Below the pieces are notes generated by a model. That model was given only the letters and a program-made list of their open reading frames with translations, was not told the DNA's origin and searched no databases. From a virus, in the IMG/VR virus record IMGVR_UViG_3300037493_002718, positions 1-22,257 of that record: a DNA stretch of 22,257 bases; one strand, 5' to 3'. The translations under genes and the position numbers were made by a program. Each line of letters begins with the position of its first letter. The first letter of the stretch is position 1. Below, one piece after another: positions 5,549 through 22,257 of this stretch.

Positions 5549-5610
5549 GAAGACGCGGGTCGTCTGCGGACGTCTTCGGTCATCTAGCGGCGTCTACTGG
5601 CGTCTACGCA
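5549..5610. repeat. 10-bp phased repeat array (CGTCTN...), operator or iteron-like
   Basis: Five copies of the hexamer C(G/A)TCT(G/T/A) begin exactly at 5561, 5571, 5581, 5591 and 5601, a strict 10-bp period (about one helical turn). A reverse-oriented copy, GAAGACG (5549-5555), forms an inverted repeat with CGTCTTC at 5571-5577. The array lies just upstream of the YdaS/Cro-like gene and overlaps the last codons of the neighbouring membrane-protein gene. Spacing on one DNA face suggests cooperative protein binding. Confidence 0.7.
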
Positions 5611-6001
5611 CTTTTTTATTGGGGGCGCGCTTCTTCTTGTTCTTGCTGCCCTTGGGCTTGTTCTTGCTGCCCTTGGGCCTGCCGCCCTTGTTCTTAGGCG
5701 CAGGGGGTGTCTCGAGTGTGACGCGGACGTCTACCGGCAGCGGCGCGGGCGGCGCGGGCGGCGCGGGTTTCGGATTGTCGTAGTCCTGATACGCCTTGAG
5801 ATACTTAGTCCGCAGCGCGGGATCGTCCCACACGCCAGCTTCAACCATGGCCCGTTTGCGCGACGGCGAAACGTAAACAACCTTTTTCGGTGTATCCCTA
5901 GTGGCCGACTTGCGGTGCCGGTATATGTCTATGCACACGCCGATGACTAAGCCGACGAAGGCGAGGCCGATCATCAGCGCGATTGCCTGAGTGTTTTCCA
6001 T
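5594..6001 (-). CDS. Membrane-anchored protein with scaffold-like module and AT-hook-like tail
   Basis: The ~135-residue product has four visible parts: a transmembrane helix (about 5-26), a module at 40-75 closely matching the C-terminal end of the scaffold-like protein at 20212-21192 (shared AGVWDDP, LRT, YLKAYQ; 26 of 36 residues identical), a Pro/Ala-rich linker (77-103), and a very basic tail with GGRPKGSKNK, an AT-hook-like motif, partly repeated as PKGSKNK. The tail's repeat is a perfect 21-bp tandem duplication in the DNA. I prefer the ATG at 6001 because AGAGG lies nine bases upstream; it abuts the alternative ATG at 6010. A tether between membrane, procapsid and DNA is conceivable but is inference only. 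No known family recognised. Confidence 0.75.
   Translation of the reverse strand: MENTQAIALMIGLAFVGLVIGVCIDIYRHRKSATRDTPKKVVYVSPSRKRAMVEAGVWDDPALRTKYLKAYQDYDNPKPAPPAPPAPLPVDVRVTLETPPAPKNKGGRPKGSKNKPKGSKNKKKRAPNKKVRRRQ
5636..5677. repeat. Perfect 21-bp tandem duplication encoding PKGSKNK twice
   Basis: The same 21 bases occur at 5636-5656 and 5657-5677 without a mismatch. They duplicate the lysine-rich PKGSKNK heptapeptide of the AT-hook-like tail in frame. Exact identity at nucleotide level points to a recent duplication. Confidence 0.9.
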
Positions 6002-6006
6002 GTCGC

Positions 6007-6210
6007 TCATCCTCTTTGCGTTTTTTCCATGTTTTTATCTAATCGCCGCATTTGTTCTTTAAACGGAAACTTACCGCCCTTGCTGTTATTGCCGGATATT
6101 ACCTGCACCAGCTTCCCGTCTGCGGTGAACAGCTTGATGTGCTTGCTGCCGTTCTCAATCCGCAGCCCCCGGCTCACTGCATAGTCTAGTAGTTCTCGGT
6201 ATTTGTTCAT
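6007..6210 (-). CDS. Small basic protein, possibly HicA-like fold
   Basis: This 67-residue basic protein contains GSKHIKLFTADGKLVQVI (about residues 22-39) followed by GGKFPFKEQMRRL. The glycine-x-x-histidine strand is reminiscent of HicA-like dsRNA-binding folds, where a similar histidine is catalytic, but no HicB antitoxin is adjacent and the match is weak. CAGGAG lies about eight bases before the ATG; a GTG one codon earlier is also possible. Its stop overlaps an alternative ATG of the next gene. Function uncertain. Confidence 0.65.
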   Translation of the reverse strand: MNKYRELLDYAVSRGLRIENGSKHIKLFTADGKLVQVISGNNSKGGKFPFKEQMRRLDKNMEKTQRG

Positions 6211-6253
6211 CACTTCATCTCCTGCGCGGCGTCGATCATGTCAGTCATTCTTT

Positions 6254-7036: not shown

Positions 7037-7303
7037 TTATTGTCCGTCAGGTTTCGCAGAACATTCCAGCGCGGCGTCGATCATCAACTGCCAAATCTTG
7101 GTCGGCACATCATTGCTCCATTCCCACGGAAAGCCGTGGTTATGTGAGTGCGCCATCTCGATGTTGTAGTCGCTTTTGTACATAGCCTCCGTAGGCTCCC
7201 GCATGGCGGCAATGGCGGCGCGGGCTAGTTCGTCGGGTTTGTAATCGCCGTGCTGTAGCATTGTGTCATTGATGGCCTTCGCCACACGTTCAACCATGTC
7301 CAC
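7037..7303 (-). CDS. Small conserved phage protein, paralogue of 1964-2245
   Basis: An 88-residue protein sharing with the 1964-2245 product the N-terminal (M/I)VERVAKAI block, the ARAAIAAMREPTEAM block and the W(Q/R)xxIDAALE ending. The middle sections differ (here YNIEMAHSHNHGFPWEW). The GTG at 7303 has AAGGGG seven bases upstream; an ATG two codons later (7297) is the alternative. It overlaps the end of the LexA-like gene. Function unknown. Confidence 0.72.
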   Translation of the reverse strand: MDMVERVAKAINDTMLQHGDYKPDELARAAIAAMREPTEAMYKSDYNIEMAHSHNHGFPWEWSNDVPTKIWQLMIDAALECSAKPDGQ

Positions 7304-7667
7304 GGCGTTTCCCCTTCTTGATGTCTGGCAGGGTCATGGCCTTCACGTCCACGTCCCAGCCCAGTTTCTTGAGATGCCCGCGCAGGTCTAAGTTCTGCAG
7401 GTAGAGCGCGCGGGCGATGCTCTCCCAATTCGGCGTGCTCTCCAGCGGAAACAGCACGGCGATCGTGCGCGCCTTGCCGGGCGCGAAGTCGATGTAGCCG
7501 CGCTCGCGCAGGGCGTAGAGGTAGCGCGACACGGACGCCTTGGACTTGTAGCCCAGCGCCTCCTGCATCTCGGCGTAGGATGGCGAGATGCCCTTGCGCG
7601 TGATGAACGTGTTCAGAAAGTCCAGCATGCGCTTCTGTGAGGCCGTCAGGCCGCCCGCGTTAGACAT
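7290..7667 (-). CDS. LexA-type winged-helix DNA-binding protein lacking the S24 protease domain
   Basis: Residues about 8-65 match the LexA N-terminal DNA-binding domain: SQKRMLDFLNTFITRKGISP, SYAEMQEALGYKSKASVSRY and LRERGYIDFAPGKARTIAV. After this there is only a ~50-residue tail with a helix and a basic end (KKGKRRGHG). LexA repressors are about 200 residues with a self-cleaving Ser/Lys domain; that domain is absent, so this protein should not respond to RecA by cleavage. It could regulate phage promoters or compete at host SOS boxes, by inference. Its start overlaps the DUF6378 gene by eight bases. Confidence 0.85.
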   Translation of the reverse strand: MSNAGGLTASQKRMLDFLNTFITRKGISPSYAEMQEALGYKSKASVSRYLYALRERGYIDFAPGKARTIAVLFPLESTPNWESIARALYLQNLDLRGHLKKLGWDVDVKAMTLPDIKKGKRRGHG

Positions 7668-8108: not shown

Positions 8109-8398
8109 GGTTTTAGCTCCACGCTGCCCAATACCGCCGTGACGAGGCGCTGACCCCAGATCCGGTTCATGCTGGCGCGGCTCATGCCGCAACTGGCGTT
8201 GTGCCGGATCAGCTCGACGGAGCGCGGATGCGCGCGCAGGTAGACGCCGGCCATCATCGTGTCGTGATCGGGGGTCGCTTCGGCCTCCTCCCTGCCGCGT
8301 TTAGGCGGGTTCTGCGGGCGCATTGCGCGCCTGATGCCCTCCTCGAGATCGCGCAGCAGGCGGGCGCGCTCGAGGTCGTTGTTATCGGGTATTTGCAT
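8105..8398 (-). CDS. Hypothetical protein downstream of GcrA-like gene
   Basis: A 97-residue protein. Residues 7-30 form a charged helix (DLERARLLRDLEEGIRRAM), and the C-terminal half has HNASCGMSRASMNRIWGQRL, which could be a small helix-turn-helix. It overlaps the end of the GcrA-like gene by 17 bases and the next gene by four. Not recognised. Confidence 0.62.
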   Translation of the reverse strand: MQIPDNNDLERARLLRDLEEGIRRAMRPQNPPKRGREEAEATPDHDTMMAGVYLRAHPRSVELIRHNASCGMSRASMNRIWGQRLVTAVLGSVELKP

Positions 8399-8918
8399 TG
8401 TTACGGCCTCTCATCGGGGGGTGGTATGCGATCGCGACGTGCTTCTCGCAGTAGGGGCGGCCAGTTACCTTCTGGTCGCCGCAGAAGTAGTACTCGCCGC
8501 CCAGTGCGTTGTTCAGCGGCCAGCGGCAGTGGTGGCGCCGCAGCTCCATCATGCGCAGCAGGCCGGGCGTCTTGGGGTCGATCGCGTCGTACTCCGTCGC
8601 CTTGATCTCGCGCGGCGGCACCGGGACCGTCGGCAGGGCGGCGGCGCCAAAGCCGTAGCTGGCGCGGTGCTGGCGCGCCAGCACGCGCTTGACCTTGGCG
8701 ACGGCGGGGTCGTCCTTGGGCGTCTCGGGCTTCAAGGGCTTGTATGGTGCGTCCAGCTTGTCGGCGAGCTTGAGGCGGTGGATCTTGCCCAGCACGGCAT
8801 TGCGCGTGACGTTCTTGCCGAGAGCCTTGGCGATCTGCGCGGAGCTCTTGCCCTGCGCCAGCAGCGCCAGCAACGCCTTGACGCGCGCGGGTGGCCAGAT
8901 GTCGGTGCGCGGCTTCAT
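8382..8918 (-). CDS. gcrA: GcrA-like cell-cycle regulator
   Basis: This 178-residue protein has the two ends of GcrA. The N-terminal helix-turn-helix reads WPPARVKALLALLAQGKSSA then KALGKNVTRNAVLGKIHRL (about residues 8-50). The C-terminal sigma-interacting part has HHCRWPL, YYFCGDQKVTGRPYCEKH and AIAY, with C131, C146, C157 and H160 placed for a zinc site. In alphaproteobacteria GcrA binds sigma70 and GANTC sites methylated by CcrM to activate cell-cycle promoters; some phages of this group carry copies. The ATG at 8918 overlaps the previous stop (ATGA). Redirecting host RNA polymerase to phage or host promoters is the likely role, by inference. Confidence 0.9.
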   Translation of the reverse strand: MKPRTDIWPPARVKALLALLAQGKSSAQIAKALGKNVTRNAVLGKIHRLKLADKLDAPYKPLKPETPKDDPAVAKVKRVLARQHRASYGFGAAALPTVPVPPREIKATEYDAIDPKTPGLLRMMELRRHHCRWPLNNALGGEYYFCGDQKVTGRPYCEKHVAIAYHPPMRGRNNANTR

Positions 8919-9091
8919 AGCACCGGCCCCAGCCACGCGGCGGCGACCAGTGCGGCGAAGCCCAGCACCCCAAACAGCAGGGCCAGCAGGGCCGTGCCGG
9001 CCACGGCGGCGACGGCCATCCCGAGGCGCGGGGGGCGCTTGGCTGGCGGGACGTAGGCGGTGTTTGGCAGTCCGTAATTGCGCGGGCTCAT
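8915..9091 (-). CDS. Small membrane protein
   Basis: A 58-residue protein with a basic, proline-rich N-terminus (VPPAKRPPRLG) and a long hydrophobic segment of about 30 residues, enough for one long or two short membrane passes (AVAAVAGTALLALLFG, then FAALVAAAWLG). The ATG at 9091 overlaps the stop of the 26-residue gene before it and its stop overlaps the GcrA-like start, so it is coupled on both sides. No function recognised. Confidence 0.65.
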   Translation of the reverse strand: MSPRNYGLPNTAYVPPAKRPPRLGMAVAAVAGTALLALLFGVLGFAALVAAAWLGPVL

Positions 9092-10332: not shown

Positions 10333-10388
10333 CTTTGGTTTGATCGCCCCCGGCCCGTTGCCGGGGGCTGCTGCTGAGATTAGGCGGA
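10333..10388. repeat. 56-bp direct repeat, copy B, with 9-bp-stem hairpin
   Basis: Matches 10101-10156 at 55 of 56 positions. It contains the last codons and stop of the beta-clamp-like gene and a hairpin with arms 10346-10354 and 10360-10368. Both copies begin in the leader of the next gene downstream and end at the TCC-GCC-TAA terminus of the gene upstream. Confidence 0.9.
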
Positions 10389-11045
10389 CTTGGGGGCGGA
10401 GGTGGACGTCACCCACTGCGGAGCGGCCCATGGCTCGTCCGTGCCACGGATCGGCATGATCACGCCGAGGGCGTCGCGGTGGCCGGTCCACGTCACGACG
10501 GATGGGTTGCCGGGCACCGGGTGGTGGACGTAGGGCGTCTTGCCCAGCTCCAGATCCTGCCCAGCGCGCTGCAGGCGGGCCAGCAGGGCGGGGTCAAACT
10601 GATTGACCTCGTTGCCGCTCTTGATCAGGCGGTCGGGCGTGAGGGGCTCCCACTGCGCGCTCGGCACGACGCGGCGCCAGTCGGGAAAGGTGCCGTCGAC
10701 CGGCGCGAACGACACGGCGCTGGCGCCGGCCTGCCGCAGGAGCAGCTCGCCGCCGATCGGCGAGAGCTCGAGCGTGGCGATCTCGCCCAGCTTGCGGCCG
10801 AGCTTGATCGCCTTGATCACGCCGTGCGGGATGATCCACGTCCCGGTCAGGGTGTTGTCCTCACCCTTGGGCGCCTCGCGGTGGGCGGCGAAGAGGATGT
10901 GCCCGTCGGTGGCGACGTAGGTGGCGCTGGAGGGGCTGATCTCGACGCAGACGCCGGCGAGGTAGTAGCGGGTCTCGGTGGGCGTGACGGCGTGCAGGGT
11001 GGCCTTGAGGGCCTTCAGGTCGATGGTGGCGGTGGTAACGGTCAT
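10380..11045 (-). CDS. DNA polymerase III beta-clamp-like protein, shortened
   Basis: This 221-residue protein resembles the beta sliding clamp. ATDGHILFAA (45-54) matches the ATDGHRLA motif, GTFPDWRRVVP (118-128) matches the GxFPDYxRVIP linker, and GVIMPIR (194-200) matches the C-terminal VMPMR end. Bacterial clamps are about 370 residues with three domains; this has room for two, so ring formation would need a trimer or another arrangement. The ATG at 11045 follows the shared GGGACAACC leader element; a longer upstream reading overlaps the neighbouring gene. A role as processivity factor for a phage polymerase, or as a decoy for host clamp partners, is inference. Confidence 0.82.
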   Translation of the reverse strand: MTVTTATIDLKALKATLHAVTPTETRYYLAGVCVEISPSSATYVATDGHILFAAHREAPKGEDNTLTGTWIIPHGVIKAIKLGRKLGEIATLELSPIGGELLLRQAGASAVSFAPVDGTFPDWRRVVPSAQWEPLTPDRLIKSGNEVNQFDPALLARLQRAGQDLELGKTPYVHHPVPGNPSVVTWTGHRDALGVIMPIRGTDEPWAAPQWVTSTSAPKSA

Positions 11046-11082
11046 GGTGGTTGTCCCTTTGCTGTTGGTGGTTGTTGCGGTG

Positions 11083-11568
11083 TTAATTGAACCAGCGCGC
11101 GACGAGGGTGCGCGGCAGGTTACGGCGTGCGGCGGCGCGGATCTTGTCGCTGGTCTCACAGCAGCAATCTTCGCGATAGAACGCCCAGAGAGCGCTTGAA
11201 AGTACGGCGCACACGGCGTGGCGATATTCCATGGGCCAGTATGACCCCACGCAGTAATCCAAGCGCTGGCCGTCCCACGACAGGCGCCCGGAGAACGCCC
11301 GAAACGCCTCGATCAGTTGCGCCTCGCTGACGCTCGAGCGGCGCACTGCGGCAAGCAGGGCGCGCGCGTCTTCGCGGGCCCGGCTGGTCGCGTTTCTGTC
11401 GTTGGCGTAAGCCTTTCGGCCGTCTTTGTCGTCCCACGAGCGAATGTAGTCGCGCGGGTCCATGCGAGGGCGCTGGTTCACAAAGTCCTCGAGCGCGTCG
11501 AGAATAACGTCTCGGGCGGCTCGAGGGGTTTGCGCGGTCTGGTTTGTGACGTTTGTGGCGGTGGTCAT
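11083..11568 (-). CDS. Hypothetical phage protein
   Basis: A 161-residue protein starting at the ATG after a copy of the shared leader element. Visible features are a threonine/asparagine-rich N-terminus, a charged middle (YIRSWDDKDGRKAYANDR) and a cysteine cluster near the end (EDCCCETSD). Helical predictions dominate (VILDALEDFV, AREDARALLAAVRR, AQLIEAFRAFSGRL). The segment just before the beta-clamp-like gene suggests a shared early operon. Not recognised. Confidence 0.65.
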   Translation of the reverse strand: MTTATNVTNQTAQTPRAARDVILDALEDFVNQRPRMDPRDYIRSWDDKDGRKAYANDRNATSRAREDARALLAAVRRSSVSEAQLIEAFRAFSGRLSWDGQRLDYCVGSYWPMEYRHAVCAVLSSALWAFYREDCCCETSDKIRAAARRNLPRTLVARWFN

Positions 11569-13544: not shown

Positions 13545-13855
13545 GTTGCAGTTTCTTGCAAGGTGGGTGGCGAGGTGGTGCGAATAGTGCAAGCGATTGG
13601 TGGCCAACATTTGCAACAGATGCAACATGATGCAACGTGTTGCATGTTGCGCGGCAGGCGCTGGTGCAACACGTCAATGCAACACGGGGGGAGATACTTA
13701 CTCCGTAAGTATCCCCATCGTGTTGCGTGTTGCAACGAGCCGTGGTGCTGTTGCGTTGCGCCGCTGGCGCTGCGCTGCTGCGTTGTACTCGAACCGTGTA
13801 ATTTCCTTCCAATCGCAACAGATGATGCACCGTGTTGCAGATGTTGCGTGTTGCG
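13545..13855. repeat. Array of 17 GTTGCA/GTTGCG sites
   Basis: I count ten GTTGCA/TGCAAC sites (13545, 13612, 13621, 13631, 13639, 13665, 13678, 13729, 13731, 13834) and seven GTTGCG/CGCAAC (13646, 13722, 13750, 13755, 13814, 13843, 13850), many preceded by T or followed by A as TGTTGC/GCAACA, in both orientations. A random sequence this long would hold less than one. The same GTTGCA core is in both leftward promoters. An iteron-like origin, a segregation site or a regulator-binding cluster would all fit. Confidence 0.8.
13665..13734. repeat. 70-bp imperfect inverted repeat (cruciform)
   Basis: The centre has perfect 9-bp arms GATACTTAC (13693-13701) and GTAAGTATC (13705-13713) with a 3-nt loop, then a bulge and a G/C run. 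Outer arms are built of TGCAACACG on the left and CGTGTTGCA on the right. It sits in the middle of the GTTGCR array. Confidence 0.7.
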
Positions 13856-13871
13856 CGGTGTGATGCTGCGC

Positions 13872-13910: not shown

Positions 13911-13937
13911 GGGGCGCTCGTTTGCATCGAGCGCCCC
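13911..13937 (+). promoter_or_regulatory. Perfect leader hairpin before the AP2-domain gene
   Basis: Arms GGGGCGCTCG (13911-13920) and CGAGCGCCCC (13928-13937) pair perfectly around a 7-nt TTTGCAT loop, 29 bases before the ATG. No T run follows, so an intrinsic terminator is unlikely; an mRNA-stabilising or protein-binding leader element is more likely. Confidence 0.65.
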
Positions 13938-13966
13938 GACATAGAACCGAACGGAGAAACGATCCC

Positions 13967-14737
13967 ATGCCAAGACATCAGCATACCGTAGCGTCGCGTT
14001 CAGCGCGATACGAAGATGACGTAAAACAGTGGCGCGCGGAACGCGTCGCCGCTCACGAACAGTTGCGGGCGAGATTTGAGCGTCAGGCGGGGGAGTTGAA
14101 GGACTATCTTGCGAGCTTGCCTCCTAGTACCGAAGCAGAGAAAGAGGCGCGGCGCGCCCAACAGCAGGCCAAGCAGAACAAAAGCCGGCCCGAAAGGTCG
14201 AAAATACGCGAAGAGTGCGCCGCGCAAGACCGGGAGGCGGAGCCGCATCGCGGCGTTCGTTTTGACCCAAGGATTGGAAAGTTTGTGGCGCGTTTCTACG
14301 ATAGGCGCACCCGCCGTGATCTTTGGTTAGGCGCTTTTCCCACGGCGGTTGAGGCAGGCGCGGCCTATCAGGCGCACTTCGCAAAAGCTCCGAAAAAGCC
14401 TGAGACTAACGCCGAGGTGTACCGGCGTTGGAAAGATACGGCTCGGCATGTTGCGGGGGAAGTCGCCGAGGGCGAAGTATGCGCTATGCCTGATGGCCAG
14501 CTATTTGAGCTGGCGGAAGTTTTTCACAACACCACCACTGGCGATGTGTGGTGGACGGAGTATCACTTTGCGTCCTCGTGCCGGGAGTGCGGGAAGACGT
14601 ATTTTTTCAGCACAAGTCCTAATCCTTCAGGGTTTACGCGAAACTGTCCCGATCACAGGCGCGCGGGGCGAGGCAGGCGCGCCGATGCGGCTAGTAAAAA
14701 ACTGCATGAGCCGGAAGACGGCAGCGATCTGATTTGA
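13967..14737 (+). CDS. AP2-domain DNA-binding protein with zinc-ribbon-like C-terminus
   Basis: From the ATG at 13967 (GGAG ten bases upstream) this is 256 residues. A charged, helical N-terminal half (KEARRAQQQAKQNKSRPERS) precedes an AP2 domain at about 93-140: HRGVRFDPRIGKFVARFYD, then RDLWLGAFPTAVEAGAAYQA, matching the YRGV...W-x-A-x-I...LG-x-F-x-T-x-EEAAxAYD pattern. Toward the end SCRECGKTYFFS and RNCPDHRR give CxxC and CPDH, a possible zinc ribbon. AP2 domains in phages are often tied to HNH homing endonucleases, but no HNH motif is visible, so a DNA-binding regulator is more likely. It is a candidate to bind the repeat array just upstream. Confidence 0.82.
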   Translation: MPRHQHTVASRSARYEDDVKQWRAERVAAHEQLRARFERQAGELKDYLASLPPSTEAEKEARRAQQQAKQNKSRPERSKIREECAAQDREAEPHRGVRFDPRIGKFVARFYDRRTRRDLWLGAFPTAVEAGAAYQAHFAKAPKKPETNAEVYRRWKDTARHVAGEVAEGEVCAMPDGQLFELAEVFHNTTTGDVWWTEYHFASSCRECGKTYFFSTSPNPSGFTRNCPDHRRAGRGRRADAASKKLHEPEDGSDLI

Positions 14738-19738: not shown

Positions 19739-19764
19739 CCCCTTACTTGCAGGAAGGAGCACCC

Positions 19765-20190
19765 ATGCAAGAAATAGCAAACAAGATCTCGTTCGCGTAT
19801 GACAACGTCGACGAGGCGTTCCCGAGTTGTGATCCGGGCGTGCAGCCGTTTGGCAGCCGCGTCTTGGTTCAGATCAGGACACCCAAGAAGAAGACGGCCG
19901 GCGGCATCATGCTGGTCGGCGAGACGCGCGAGACTGAGCACTACAACACCCAAGTCGCCAAGGTTCTGACCGTCGGCAGCTTGGCCTTCAAGAACCGAAA
20001 CACCATGGAGAGCTGGCCGGAAGGCTCGTGGTGCGCGCCCGGAGACTTCGTGCGCGTGCCGCGTTACGGCGGCGATCGGTGGACGGTTAAGACGCCCGAC
20101 GGCGATGAGGCCATCGTGGTGATTTTCAACGATCTCGACCTAGTGGGCAAGGTGACTGGCGATCCGCTGGCCATCAAGGCCTTCCTATAA
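19765..20190 (+). CDS. GroES-like co-chaperonin
   Basis: A 141-residue protein with the Cpn10 layout: QPFGSRVLVQIRTPKKKTAG (strand and start of the mobile loop), GGIMLVGETRE, then AKVLTVG, a long insertion (AFKNRNTMESWPEGSWCAPG), FVRVPRYGG and AIVVIFNDLDLVGKV. Bacterial GroES is about 95 residues, so this is enlarged by extra N- and C-terminal segments and the insertion. Phage versions such as T4 gp31 work with host GroEL to fold the capsid protein. The ATG at 19765 follows AGGAAGGAG closely; a TTG six codons earlier is unlikely. Confidence 0.88.
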   Translation: MQEIANKISFAYDNVDEAFPSCDPGVQPFGSRVLVQIRTPKKKTAGGIMLVGETRETEHYNTQVAKVLTVGSLAFKNRNTMESWPEGSWCAPGDFVRVPRYGGDRWTVKTPDGDEAIVVIFNDLDLVGKVTGDPLAIKAFL

Positions 20191-20211: not shown

Positions 20212-21192
20212 ATGGCAGACGACAAACTGATTGAGACTGACGAAGACGAACTGGTTGCCGTAGAGACGCCCCCCAAGGACGAGGGCAAACCAGAACCGAA
20301 GGCCGAAGCCGAGGCGGAAGCCGACGCCGAGGACGACGAGGAAGACGAGAGCGAGGGCGACGAGCGCCTTGCCGAGAGCCAAGACGACACAGACGAAGAC
20401 GTCTCACCCAACCGCAAGCGGCGCCTGAAGCGGCGCGAAGTGCGCAAGCGGGCCAAGGAGAACGCCGATCGCGAGCTGCGGTTCCTGCGCGAGCAGAACG
20501 CCGAGCTGGTGCGGCGCGTGTCGGCCATCGAGGGCCACGCCTTGTCGACGAACGAGCAGACGCTGGATCAGCGCATGCAGGAGGCCGTGCGCGACGCCCA
20601 GCAGGCGGAGAGCATCATGGCGCGCGCGATCGAGGCCGGAAACGGCGAAGACGCCGCCACGGCACTGCGCCTGCGCGACGAGGCCAACCGGCGTGCGTGG
20701 GAATTGTCTCAGTCAAAACAACAGGTTGAGCAGGTCCGCAAGCAGGTTGCCAACCCCGGCCCGGATCCGCGCGTGCGCAATCTGGCGCAGGAGTGGATCG
20801 CCGCCAACCCGTGGTACGACCCCAATGGGCGCGACGAGGACAGCCGCGTCACGAAGGCGATCGACGACGGTCTGGTGTCTGAGGGCTACAACCCGGCGTC
20901 GGTCGACTACTGGCACGAGCTGACGCGTCGCGTGTCTTCGCGCATCAACGGCGGAAGCGCCGCGGATGACGACGGCGGCGAGGAGGCACCGCGCGCTGCG
21001 GCGCCGGCCAAGCGCAAGGCTCCGCCCACGGGTAACAGCCGCGAGCACGCGCCTCCGTCGACGCGCAAGGAAGTTTATGTGACACAGGACCGCAAACAGG
21101 CTATGATTGATGCTGGAGTATGGGATGATCCCGTACTTCGGACGCGCTATCTGAAGGCGTATCAGGCCTACGACAAGAACTCGGCACGCTAA
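20212..21192 (+). CDS. Scaffold-like protein
   Basis: The 326-residue product is very acidic at the N-terminus (residues 1-65, many Asp/Glu), has a charged coiled-coil middle (about 70-190) with RKRRLKRREVRKRAKENADR, a globular segment (LAQEWIAANPWYDPNG at about 193-208), a flexible linker and a compact C-terminal module (286-321) with AGVWDDP and YLKAYQAYD. Its place between portal/GroES-like and structural genes, and its composition, fit a capsid scaffolding protein whose C-terminus usually binds the capsid protein. The same module recurs in the membrane protein at 5594-6001. AAAGGAGAG precedes the ATG. Confidence 0.82.
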   Translation: MADDKLIETDEDELVAVETPPKDEGKPEPKAEAEAEADAEDDEEDESEGDERLAESQDDTDEDVSPNRKRRLKRREVRKRAKENADRELRFLREQNAELVRRVSAIEGHALSTNEQTLDQRMQEAVRDAQQAESIMARAIEAGNGEDAATALRLRDEANRRAWELSQSKQQVEQVRKQVANPGPDPRVRNLAQEWIAANPWYDPNGRDEDSRVTKAIDDGLVSEGYNPASVDYWHELTRRVSSRINGGSAADDDGGEEAPRAAAPAKRKAPPTGNSREHAPPSTRKEVYVTQDRKQAMIDAGVWDDPVLRTRYLKAYQAYDKNSAR

Positions 21193-21206: not shown

Positions 21207-21740
21207 ATGAACGTAGATGATCGCCTTAAGAAGGAACTCGGTGCCAGTCGGCGCACCCGCGAAGTCGAGGACCGCAAGGTTACTCAGGATCGCGCGGTAA
21301 GCGAAGACGACAGGCTGGAGATGTTCCGTCAGCAACTGTTTAATGATGCATTGCCGGATTTGCCCGAATTGCCCGGGTATCACACCATCTGGCTCACGAC
21401 TACGAACCCGCGTGATAGTATTCATCGCCGCATCCGTCTCGGTTACGAGCCGATCAAGCCTGAAGAAATCCCCGGACTGGAGTATGCGTCCATCAAGACT
21501 GGCGAATGGGCCGGTTTTGTGGGCGTCAACGAGATGCTCGCGTTTAAGCTGCCCATGAGCCTCTATCAGAAGTTCATGCAGGAAGCTCACCACGACGCAC
21601 CGTTGCGTGAGGAAAACAAGCTGGCCGAAACCGCAGAGATTATGCGGGAGCAGGCGGCTCGTGCCGGAGCGAAGTTGATCGAGGGCGACGGAATGACGGA
21701 CATGTATGAACCCGCGCCCGGCGCCCCAGTTTTCAACTGA
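21207..21740 (+). CDS. Conserved virion-region protein
   Basis: A 177-residue protein. The N-terminal third is charged and helical (RKVTQDRAVSEDDRLEMFRQ); the centre has LPGYHTIWLTTTNPRDSIHR and RIRLGYEPIKPEEIPGLEY, a pattern found in proteins between scaffold and capsid genes of podovirus-like phages. The end is disordered. AAAAGGAG lies upstream of the ATG. It may take part in procapsid assembly; its exact role is unknown. Confidence 0.75.
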   Translation: MNVDDRLKKELGASRRTREVEDRKVTQDRAVSEDDRLEMFRQQLFNDALPDLPELPGYHTIWLTTTNPRDSIHRRIRLGYEPIKPEEIPGLEYASIKTGEWAGFVGVNEMLAFKLPMSLYQKFMQEAHHDAPLREENKLAETAEIMREQAARAGAKLIEGDGMTDMYEPAPGAPVFN

Positions 21741-21781: not shown

Positions 21782-22257
21782 ATGTCTTCTGTCTCTCAGC
21801 CGTTTGGCCTCCGTCCGTCTTACTCGCCGAGTGGTGTGGTCCGTCCCACCGCTTTCACGATTGAGAACGGCTACGCGGCCAACATCTACCAGAACCAGCC
21901 GGTTCGCATCGCCCCCAGCACTGGCGGCGGTGAAGTCGAAGGTACTCTTGTTGCGGCCGCCGTTGGCGCCGCCTTCATCGGCACCTTTCAGGGCGTTGAG
22001 TTCACCGACAGCGACGGTCGTCGTCGCGTGTCGAACAAGTGGACTGCTTCGCAGTATGGCACCGAAGTGGTCGCCTATTCGACGCTCGACCCGAGCATCG
22101 TGTATGAGATCCAGTCGGATGCCACGCTGACGGTCGCCAGCATTGGCAAGCAGTACAATCTCACTGCCATCAGCGGCAATGCCACCACGGGCCTCTCCTC
22201 GCAGATGCTCGACACGGCTACTTCCGCTTCGAACGCGTCTGTTCGCGTCATCGGCGT
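21782..22257 (+). CDS. Virion structural protein (possible decoration/head protein), C-terminus outside window
   Basis: The 158 visible codons begin SSVSQPFGLRPSYSPSGVV and continue with beta-rich sequence (FTIENGYAANIYQNQPVRI, FIGTFQGVEFTDSDGRRRVS). Proteins opening with PFGLRP and carrying a G-x-F-x-G-V-x-x-T-D pattern are structural components of tailed-phage heads, perhaps decoration proteins. The ATG at 21782 is preceded by AGAGGAA. The gene runs off the right edge. Whether it is the major capsid or an accessory protein cannot be told from the visible part. Confidence 0.7.
   Translation, partial: MSSVSQPFGLRPSYSPSGVVRPTAFTIENGYAANIYQNQPVRIAPSTGGGEVEGTLVAAAVGAAFIGTFQGVEFTDSDGRRRVSNKWTASQYGTEVVAYSTLDPSIVYEIQSDATLTVASIGKQYNLTAISGNATTGLSSQMLDTATSASNASVRVIG

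Follow-up and report, generated by a model that had tools for sequence, protein, structure and literature searches.

Genes of the window and an early-region membrane protein

The stretch of DNA analysed here, 22,257 nt in length and hereafter called the window, derives from an uncultured phage that is related to Caulobacter phage RW. On its minus strand, at 5594–6001, lies a gene for a small protein of 135 amino acids read from an ATG at 6001, which we term the early protein because of the position of its gene among replication and regulatory genes. A start at 6010 is also available in this frame and would give 138 residues (5594–6010, with the end of the stop codon at 5594); however, the ATG at 6001 (MENTQ...) is the start common to the orthologues in four other contigs (L001, L003, L004 and L099), in agreement with the start originally proposed.

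The early protein is composed of four successive parts. The first is a predicted transmembrane helix with the core AIALMIGLAFVGLVIGVCI (5930–5986, minus strand), followed by a basic YRHRKS stretch; the helix is supported both by hydropathy, since residues 6–24 form the most hydrophobic 19-residue stretch of the protein with a Kyte-Doolittle mean of 2.8, and by AlphaFold2, which models a membrane helix over residues 2–33 with a block pLDDT of 93–97 over residues 1–30. Residues 26–40 carry a net charge of +5. The second part is the module that is the subject of this work, KVVYVSPSRKRAMVEAGVWDDPALRTKYLKAYQDYDN (5775–5884, minus strand), a predicted helix-turn-helix modelled as helices 46–55 and 61–75. 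It is followed by a Pro/Ala-rich linker (5714–5774, minus strand) and by a strongly basic tail (5594–5713, minus strand; net charge +16 over residues 95–135), which is disordered in the model. The tail contains the AT-hook-like sequence KNKGGRPKGSKNK, in which a GRP core is flanked by basic residues as in AT-hooks, and its GGRPKGSKN core is invariant across the orthologues; the tail may therefore be described as AT-hook-like, with a putative DNA-binding capacity. The transmembrane helix and the GRPKGSKNK basic tail that the original prediction had placed on either side of the module are thus both present. From its single strong hydrophobic helix and positive-inside charge pattern, the early protein is predicted to be an integral inner-membrane protein, and hydropathy and charge predict that its C-terminus, with the module and the tail, faces the cytoplasm. 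The protein matches no Pfam, PHROG or NCBIfam family beyond weak matches to the composition of its tail, its AlphaFold2 model has no solved-structure match by Foldseek, and a fold search of the PDB returned nothing significant. No report of a module-bearing membrane protein was found in a library of open-access papers with the terms tried.

Several other features of the window deserve mention. Just upstream of the early gene, a 68-aa gene (6007–6213, minus strand) appears HicA-like by eye (GSKHIKLF...VISG) and has no Pfam or NCBIfam match. Further along the same strand are genes for a protein with a LexA-type DNA-binding domain (7290–7667; PF01726, 1.1e-17), which at only 125 aa leaves no room for a full LexA protease domain; for a homologue of the alphaproteobacterial cell-cycle regulator GcrA (8382–8936; Pfam GcrA, 1.4e-27); and for a protein with similarity to the central domain of the DNA polymerase III beta clamp (10380–11159; 7.6e-08), for which one related PHROG family is named RusA-like. 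Between the divergent early and late gene blocks, seven copies of TGTTGCA/TGCAACA are packed into about 230 bp (13608–13858), with nine copies in the whole window against 2.5 expected, so that the cluster could be a replication origin or an array of operators. A protein encoded at 13922–14737, immediately upstream of the terminase genes, matches the AP2 domain weakly (4.6e-07), with a score under the curated cut-off.

The scaffold-like protein and its head-gene neighbourhood

A second copy of the module forms the extreme C-terminus (21067–21176, plus strand) of a 326-aa protein encoded at 20212–21192 on the plus strand, which has an acidic disordered N-terminus, long helices and a C-terminal helix-turn-helix. 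Directly upstream lies a GroES/Cpn10-like gene (19747–20190, plus strand; Pfam Cpn10 6.5e-07, PHROG co-chaperonin GroES 5.9e-10). Downstream, between this gene and the capsid genes, follow a conserved 177-aa gene (21207–21740, plus strand) that is 100% identical to its counterpart at the related locus L024, and the start of a gene (21782–22255, plus strand) that shares phrog_37556 with RW gp087, its counterpart upstream of the major capsid gene, and runs off the window. The annotated relatives RW, ctpbd312 and CRP-901 share the gene order portal, GroES, scaffold-like gene, two genes and capsid, so that in all three the scaffold-like gene is a head-module gene just upstream of that for the major capsid protein; the capsid gene of RW, gp086, matches Phage_capsid_4 and Mu-like gpT. 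The AlphaFold2 model of the scaffold-like protein (77 sequences) contains long helices at 66–142 and 145–180 and C-terminal helices at 292–300 and 307–324, an elongated, largely helical arrangement with a C-terminal helix-turn-helix that resembles scaffolds as a fold only. Searches of Pfam, NCBIfam, PHROG and the PDB gave no match for the family, its sequence shows no similarity to solved scaffolds, and a PDB fold search with the model gave nothing significant; several weak BFVD hits of the model are named scaffold (E 0.065–0.46). From gene order, architecture and this weak structural resemblance, we infer that the protein is a scaffold.

The GroES-like gene also stands next to the scaffold-like gene in Caulobacter phage RW, Roseobacter phage CRP-901 and ctpbd312, an adjacency that suggests a phage co-chaperonin tied to head assembly.

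The two copies of the module are homologous

Residues 40–78 of the early protein (numbered in the 138-aa frame) align with residues 283–321 of the scaffold-like protein with 26 of 39 positions identical and 33 of 39 positive (BLASTP, E 3e-17); the match of about 26 in 36 positions originally reported for residues 40–75 and 286–321 is therefore real. The local protein alignment scores 148, whereas the best of 2000 shuffles reached 65. The DNA similarity that had been claimed extends over 110 nt without gaps, 5775–5884 on the minus strand against 21067–21176 on the plus strand, with a score of 116 against a maximum of 38 in 500 shuffles; BLASTN gives 81% over 86 bp. Scores so far above those of shuffled sequences rule out chance similarity. 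As described, the two genes lie about 15 kb apart on opposite strands. Identity between the copies is 79%, 77% and 51% at the first, second and third codon positions, respectively, the pattern of protein-level constraint, and AlphaFold2 predicts the same two module helices in both protein contexts with a pLDDT of about 90.

The module resides at scaffold C-termini in related phages

Relatives of the scaffold-like protein were collected from 73 viral loci together with a scan for the AGVWDDP pattern. Besides the early gene of the window, a profile HMM of the module recovered at least 201 scaffold copies, in which some contigs were fetched more than once, and at least 126 of which are distinct. 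The module was the extreme C-terminus of the scaffold-like protein, mostly 300–340 aa long, in every related phage examined, ending within about ten residues of the stop codon in the hits inspected, and the gene sits between the GroES-like and major capsid genes wherever these are annotated. The module is held by 33 of the 34 whole viral records, once in 32 of them, and each occurrence falls in an open frame of about 306–402 residues that corresponds to the scaffold gene. When the early protein was searched by tblastn against Caulobacter phages RW, KcrB, RLK and GB2A, the only match was the module in the scaffold-like gene. The original prediction had called for such a profile search and hinged on the module being present and homologous in the scaffold genes of related phages; across at least 126 distinct versions, it is both present and conserved at their C-termini. 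A convergent or common phage motif was considered and set aside, since the AGVWDDP matches listed are scaffold C-termini apart from a few 36-residue chance ORFs. Neither among the matches listed nor in two narrower pattern scans was a further early-type copy of the module seen.

Two occurrences stand apart. The remaining whole record with the module, G008 (63 kb), carries the scaffold gene twice, near both ends (L015 and L016), with equally scoring modules, which is probably an assembly overlap or a terminal repeat. Among the bacterial and archaeal genomes scanned with the module profile, the sole match (L238, 8001–8120) lies on a contig assigned to an Acidithiobacillales bacterium assembled from a metagenome; this contig may belong to a prophage or a phage.

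The module was inserted into the early gene

Orthologues of the early protein were found in four contigs, one of which (L001) is the same contig as the scaffold locus L024. The membrane helix, a YRHRKS- or YQHRKS-VTRDT stretch and the KNKGGRPKGSKN tail are common to the four, and the module is missing from every one of them. Over most of the length that they share, the L001/L024 contig and the window align collinearly at about 88–92% identity. Within the early gene, the two sequences agree at 82% of positions on the 5' side and at 94% over 67 nt of the tail; the window has about 150 nt of extra sequence between these two parts, consisting of the scaffold-derived module and most of the Pro/Ala-rich linker. 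Since the module is missing from the four orthologues and confined to scaffold C-termini in relatives, the transfer ran from scaffold to early gene, and the scaffold position is the ancestral one. The module in the early gene is thus an in-frame insertion of scaffold-derived sequence, so far seen only in the lineage of the window, where the module-bearing protein is known from one metagenomic contig; the claim of a copied scaffold C-terminal module is borne out by this comparison. The opposite arrangement, a module ancestral to the early protein, was rejected as the simplest reading on account of the four orthologues without it. An assembly chimera is unlikely: of 102 nt compared, 24 differ between the copy and the resident module, a mostly silent change that amounts to 15 of 34 codons, and the insertion preserves the reading frame within a collinear stretch. 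Since the orthologues evidently manage without the module, it is not essential in the group.

Selection on the copy

Between the early-gene module and the resident scaffold module, dN is 0.17 and dS 0.85, a dN/dS of about 0.2. Fifteen module positions are conserved in 90% or more of scaffolds; the copy retains 14 of them and departs at the first, which lies at the edge. At the other 22 positions, it agrees with the resident scaffold in 11 cases (Fisher p 0.011). Neutral simulation with random placement of substitutions gave a mean of 13.5–15.3 amino-acid changes against the 8–9 observed (p 0.0002–0.003, values that are not a pure test of the early copy, as the constraint lies partly on the scaffold side), and more than half of the simulated sequences acquired a stop codon. 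These patterns suggest that the copy probably remains functional and is kept by selection.

The contrary reading, that illegitimate recombination dropped a scaffold fragment into a tolerant linker where it has no function, would suit an insertion seen in one lineage only, at a linker site that varies among the orthologues and is followed by low-complexity Pro/Ala-rich sequence. We consider it fairly unlikely, because the frame has stayed open despite a dS of about 0.7–0.9 when more than half of neutral simulations gave a stop codon, dN/dS is about 0.2 and the changes avoid conserved sites; if an unsampled, diverged donor passed on the module recently, however, this conservation could largely mirror the history of the donor.

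A possible membrane-anchored binding site for coat protein

What might a retained scaffold end do on a membrane protein? In P22, a C-terminal helix-turn-helix of the scaffolding protein gp8 binds coat protein, and the module would by analogy do the same; the role is argued by analogy because no sequence similarity to solved scaffolds was found. A small, predicted single-pass membrane protein with an AT-hook-like tail has, in one lineage, gained the scaffold C-terminal helix-turn-helix; it would then expose a coat-binding site like that of a scaffold on the cytoplasmic side of the inner membrane, beside a tail that may hold DNA. As an anchor, it would concentrate coat protein or nascent procapsids at the membrane, possibly close to membrane-held replicating phage DNA. 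The reading that we tentatively favour, while placing its chances somewhat short of even, is accordingly that the early protein offers coat protein or nascent procapsids a binding site that is anchored in the membrane and faces the cytoplasm, perhaps in the vicinity of phage DNA held there.

The module's partner could instead be something other than coat, such as portal, terminase, GroES/GroEL or a host factor, which the early protein would recruit to the membrane. The GroES-like gene beside the scaffold gene in RW, CRP-901, ctpbd312 and the window would suit a chaperonin partner, but the C-terminal position and the helix-turn-helix fold parallel the coat-binding end of the P22 scaffold, and we regard a non-coat partner as very improbable. 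The module could also act as a cargo tag that sends the early protein, with its DNA-binding-like tail, into the procapsid, for packaging and perhaps for delivery to the next host on ejection. The scaffold probably contacts coat through the end that the module represents, the tail is basic, and the internal proteins of T4, which enter its scaffolding core, have only a capsid targeting sequence in common (PMC3012670); however, the strongly hydrophobic N-terminal helix should put the early protein in the membrane, and the orthologues have no tag, so that this alternative appears quite unlikely.

The age and donor of the copy bear on a further alternative to a membrane anchor. The copy is about equally distant from several scaffolds (dS 0.66–0.89); with regard to recent copying from the phage's own scaffold gene, it is no nearer to the resident module than to other scaffolds. 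Between the window and L001, by comparison, dS is 0.15–0.44 in five genes or gene parts. The higher copy-to-scaffold dS suggests that the copy predates the split of the window and L001 or that the donor was a different scaffold lineage. In trees built on 111 nt, the copy takes no firm place, and a clade with the resident scaffold is not rejected (p-AU 0.27). A donor in another phage would fit an assembly brake or decoy, in which the early, membrane-held module competes with scaffold for coat protein; this could delay capsid assembly until late in infection or interfere with a co-infecting phage whose scaffold donated the module. The copy is not clearly grouped with the resident scaffold and may therefore come from another phage, it keeps the conserved residues without the long helices of the scaffold, as would suit a dominant-negative competitor, and its gene sits among replication and regulatory genes. 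Yet scaffold and coat are normally produced in large excess over a small membrane protein, a stoichiometry unfavourable to a competitor, and the tree (p-AU 0.27–0.38) does not settle the donor. On balance, a brake or decoy is unlikely.

Returning to the membrane-anchor reading, its broader form holds that, in a tailed phage that does not belong to the T4 group, procapsids are nucleated or anchored at the inner membrane through a coat-binding domain copied from a scaffold onto a DNA-holding membrane protein. We consider this doubtful as a whole; if true, head assembly and phage DNA would be brought together at one site. As a rule, scaffold proteins are soluble and serve capsid building alone, and the movement of a scaffold end by recombination into a membrane protein of a collinear relative amounts to a natural domain-transplant experiment. 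It provides a putative binding module of about 37 residues and a sharp with/without comparison between close relatives, together with a direct means of asking whether the assembly of heads can be coupled to membrane or DNA. The analysis also brings out a scaffold-like family that is widespread yet unannotated; its members, recognisable by a diagnostic AGVWDDP C-terminus, are of use when head genes of uncultured phages are annotated.

Comparison with known systems

Homologues occur in Caulobacter phages RW (gp089), KcrB, RLK and GB2A, whose scaffold-like proteins end in the same C-terminal module and whose genes keep the same GroES–scaffold–capsid order. A structural parallel is the P22 scaffolding protein gp8, in which residues 271–300 of 303 form a helix-turn-helix that binds the coat N-arm (PMC9965877). 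Like the scaffold-like protein, gp8 has about 300 residues and a helix-turn-helix at its extreme C-terminus with basic and aromatic residues in the second helix; it differs in that no sequence similarity is detected and that the window has a second copy of the module inside an unrelated membrane protein. Pa193 gp24 offers a further parallel to the C-terminal scaffold helix-turn-helix (PMC11042391).

Other systems resemble the early protein in single aspects. The integral membrane protein p16.7 of phi29 recruits phage DNA and interacts with ssDNA and the terminal protein (PMC4974454); it is a precedent for phage DNA held at the membrane, and with its DNA-binding capacity it may illustrate what the early protein was like before it gained the module. 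In the early protein itself, by contrast, the scaffold module is accompanied by no more than a short, basic, AT-hook-like tail. The T4 internal proteins (PMC3012670) likewise carry a short head-assembly peptide on otherwise unrelated proteins, but they are head cargo, whereas the early protein has a predicted membrane helix. P4 Sid (PMC7552001, PMC3185693) is similarly a second protein engaging a phage capsid beside the normal scaffold; unlike the early protein, it is a satellite-encoded external scaffold that sets capsid size.

In its proposed role, the early protein is comparable to the membrane scaffolding protein of T4, through which head assembly is connected to the inner membrane. The T4 protein is gp40, and we know of no report that it has a copy of the scaffold's coat-binding domain. 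The membrane scaffolding protein is required for initiation of T4 head assembly, for which it is the precedent of membrane assistance, and is reported to interact with the connector (portal); against the anchor reading, a 2011 review of phage assembly described membrane association of proheads as undemonstrated outside T4 (PMC3185693). The likeness between the two proteins is one of proposed role: that of T4 is linked to the connector, whereas the early protein carries a copy of the scaffold's putative coat-binding module.
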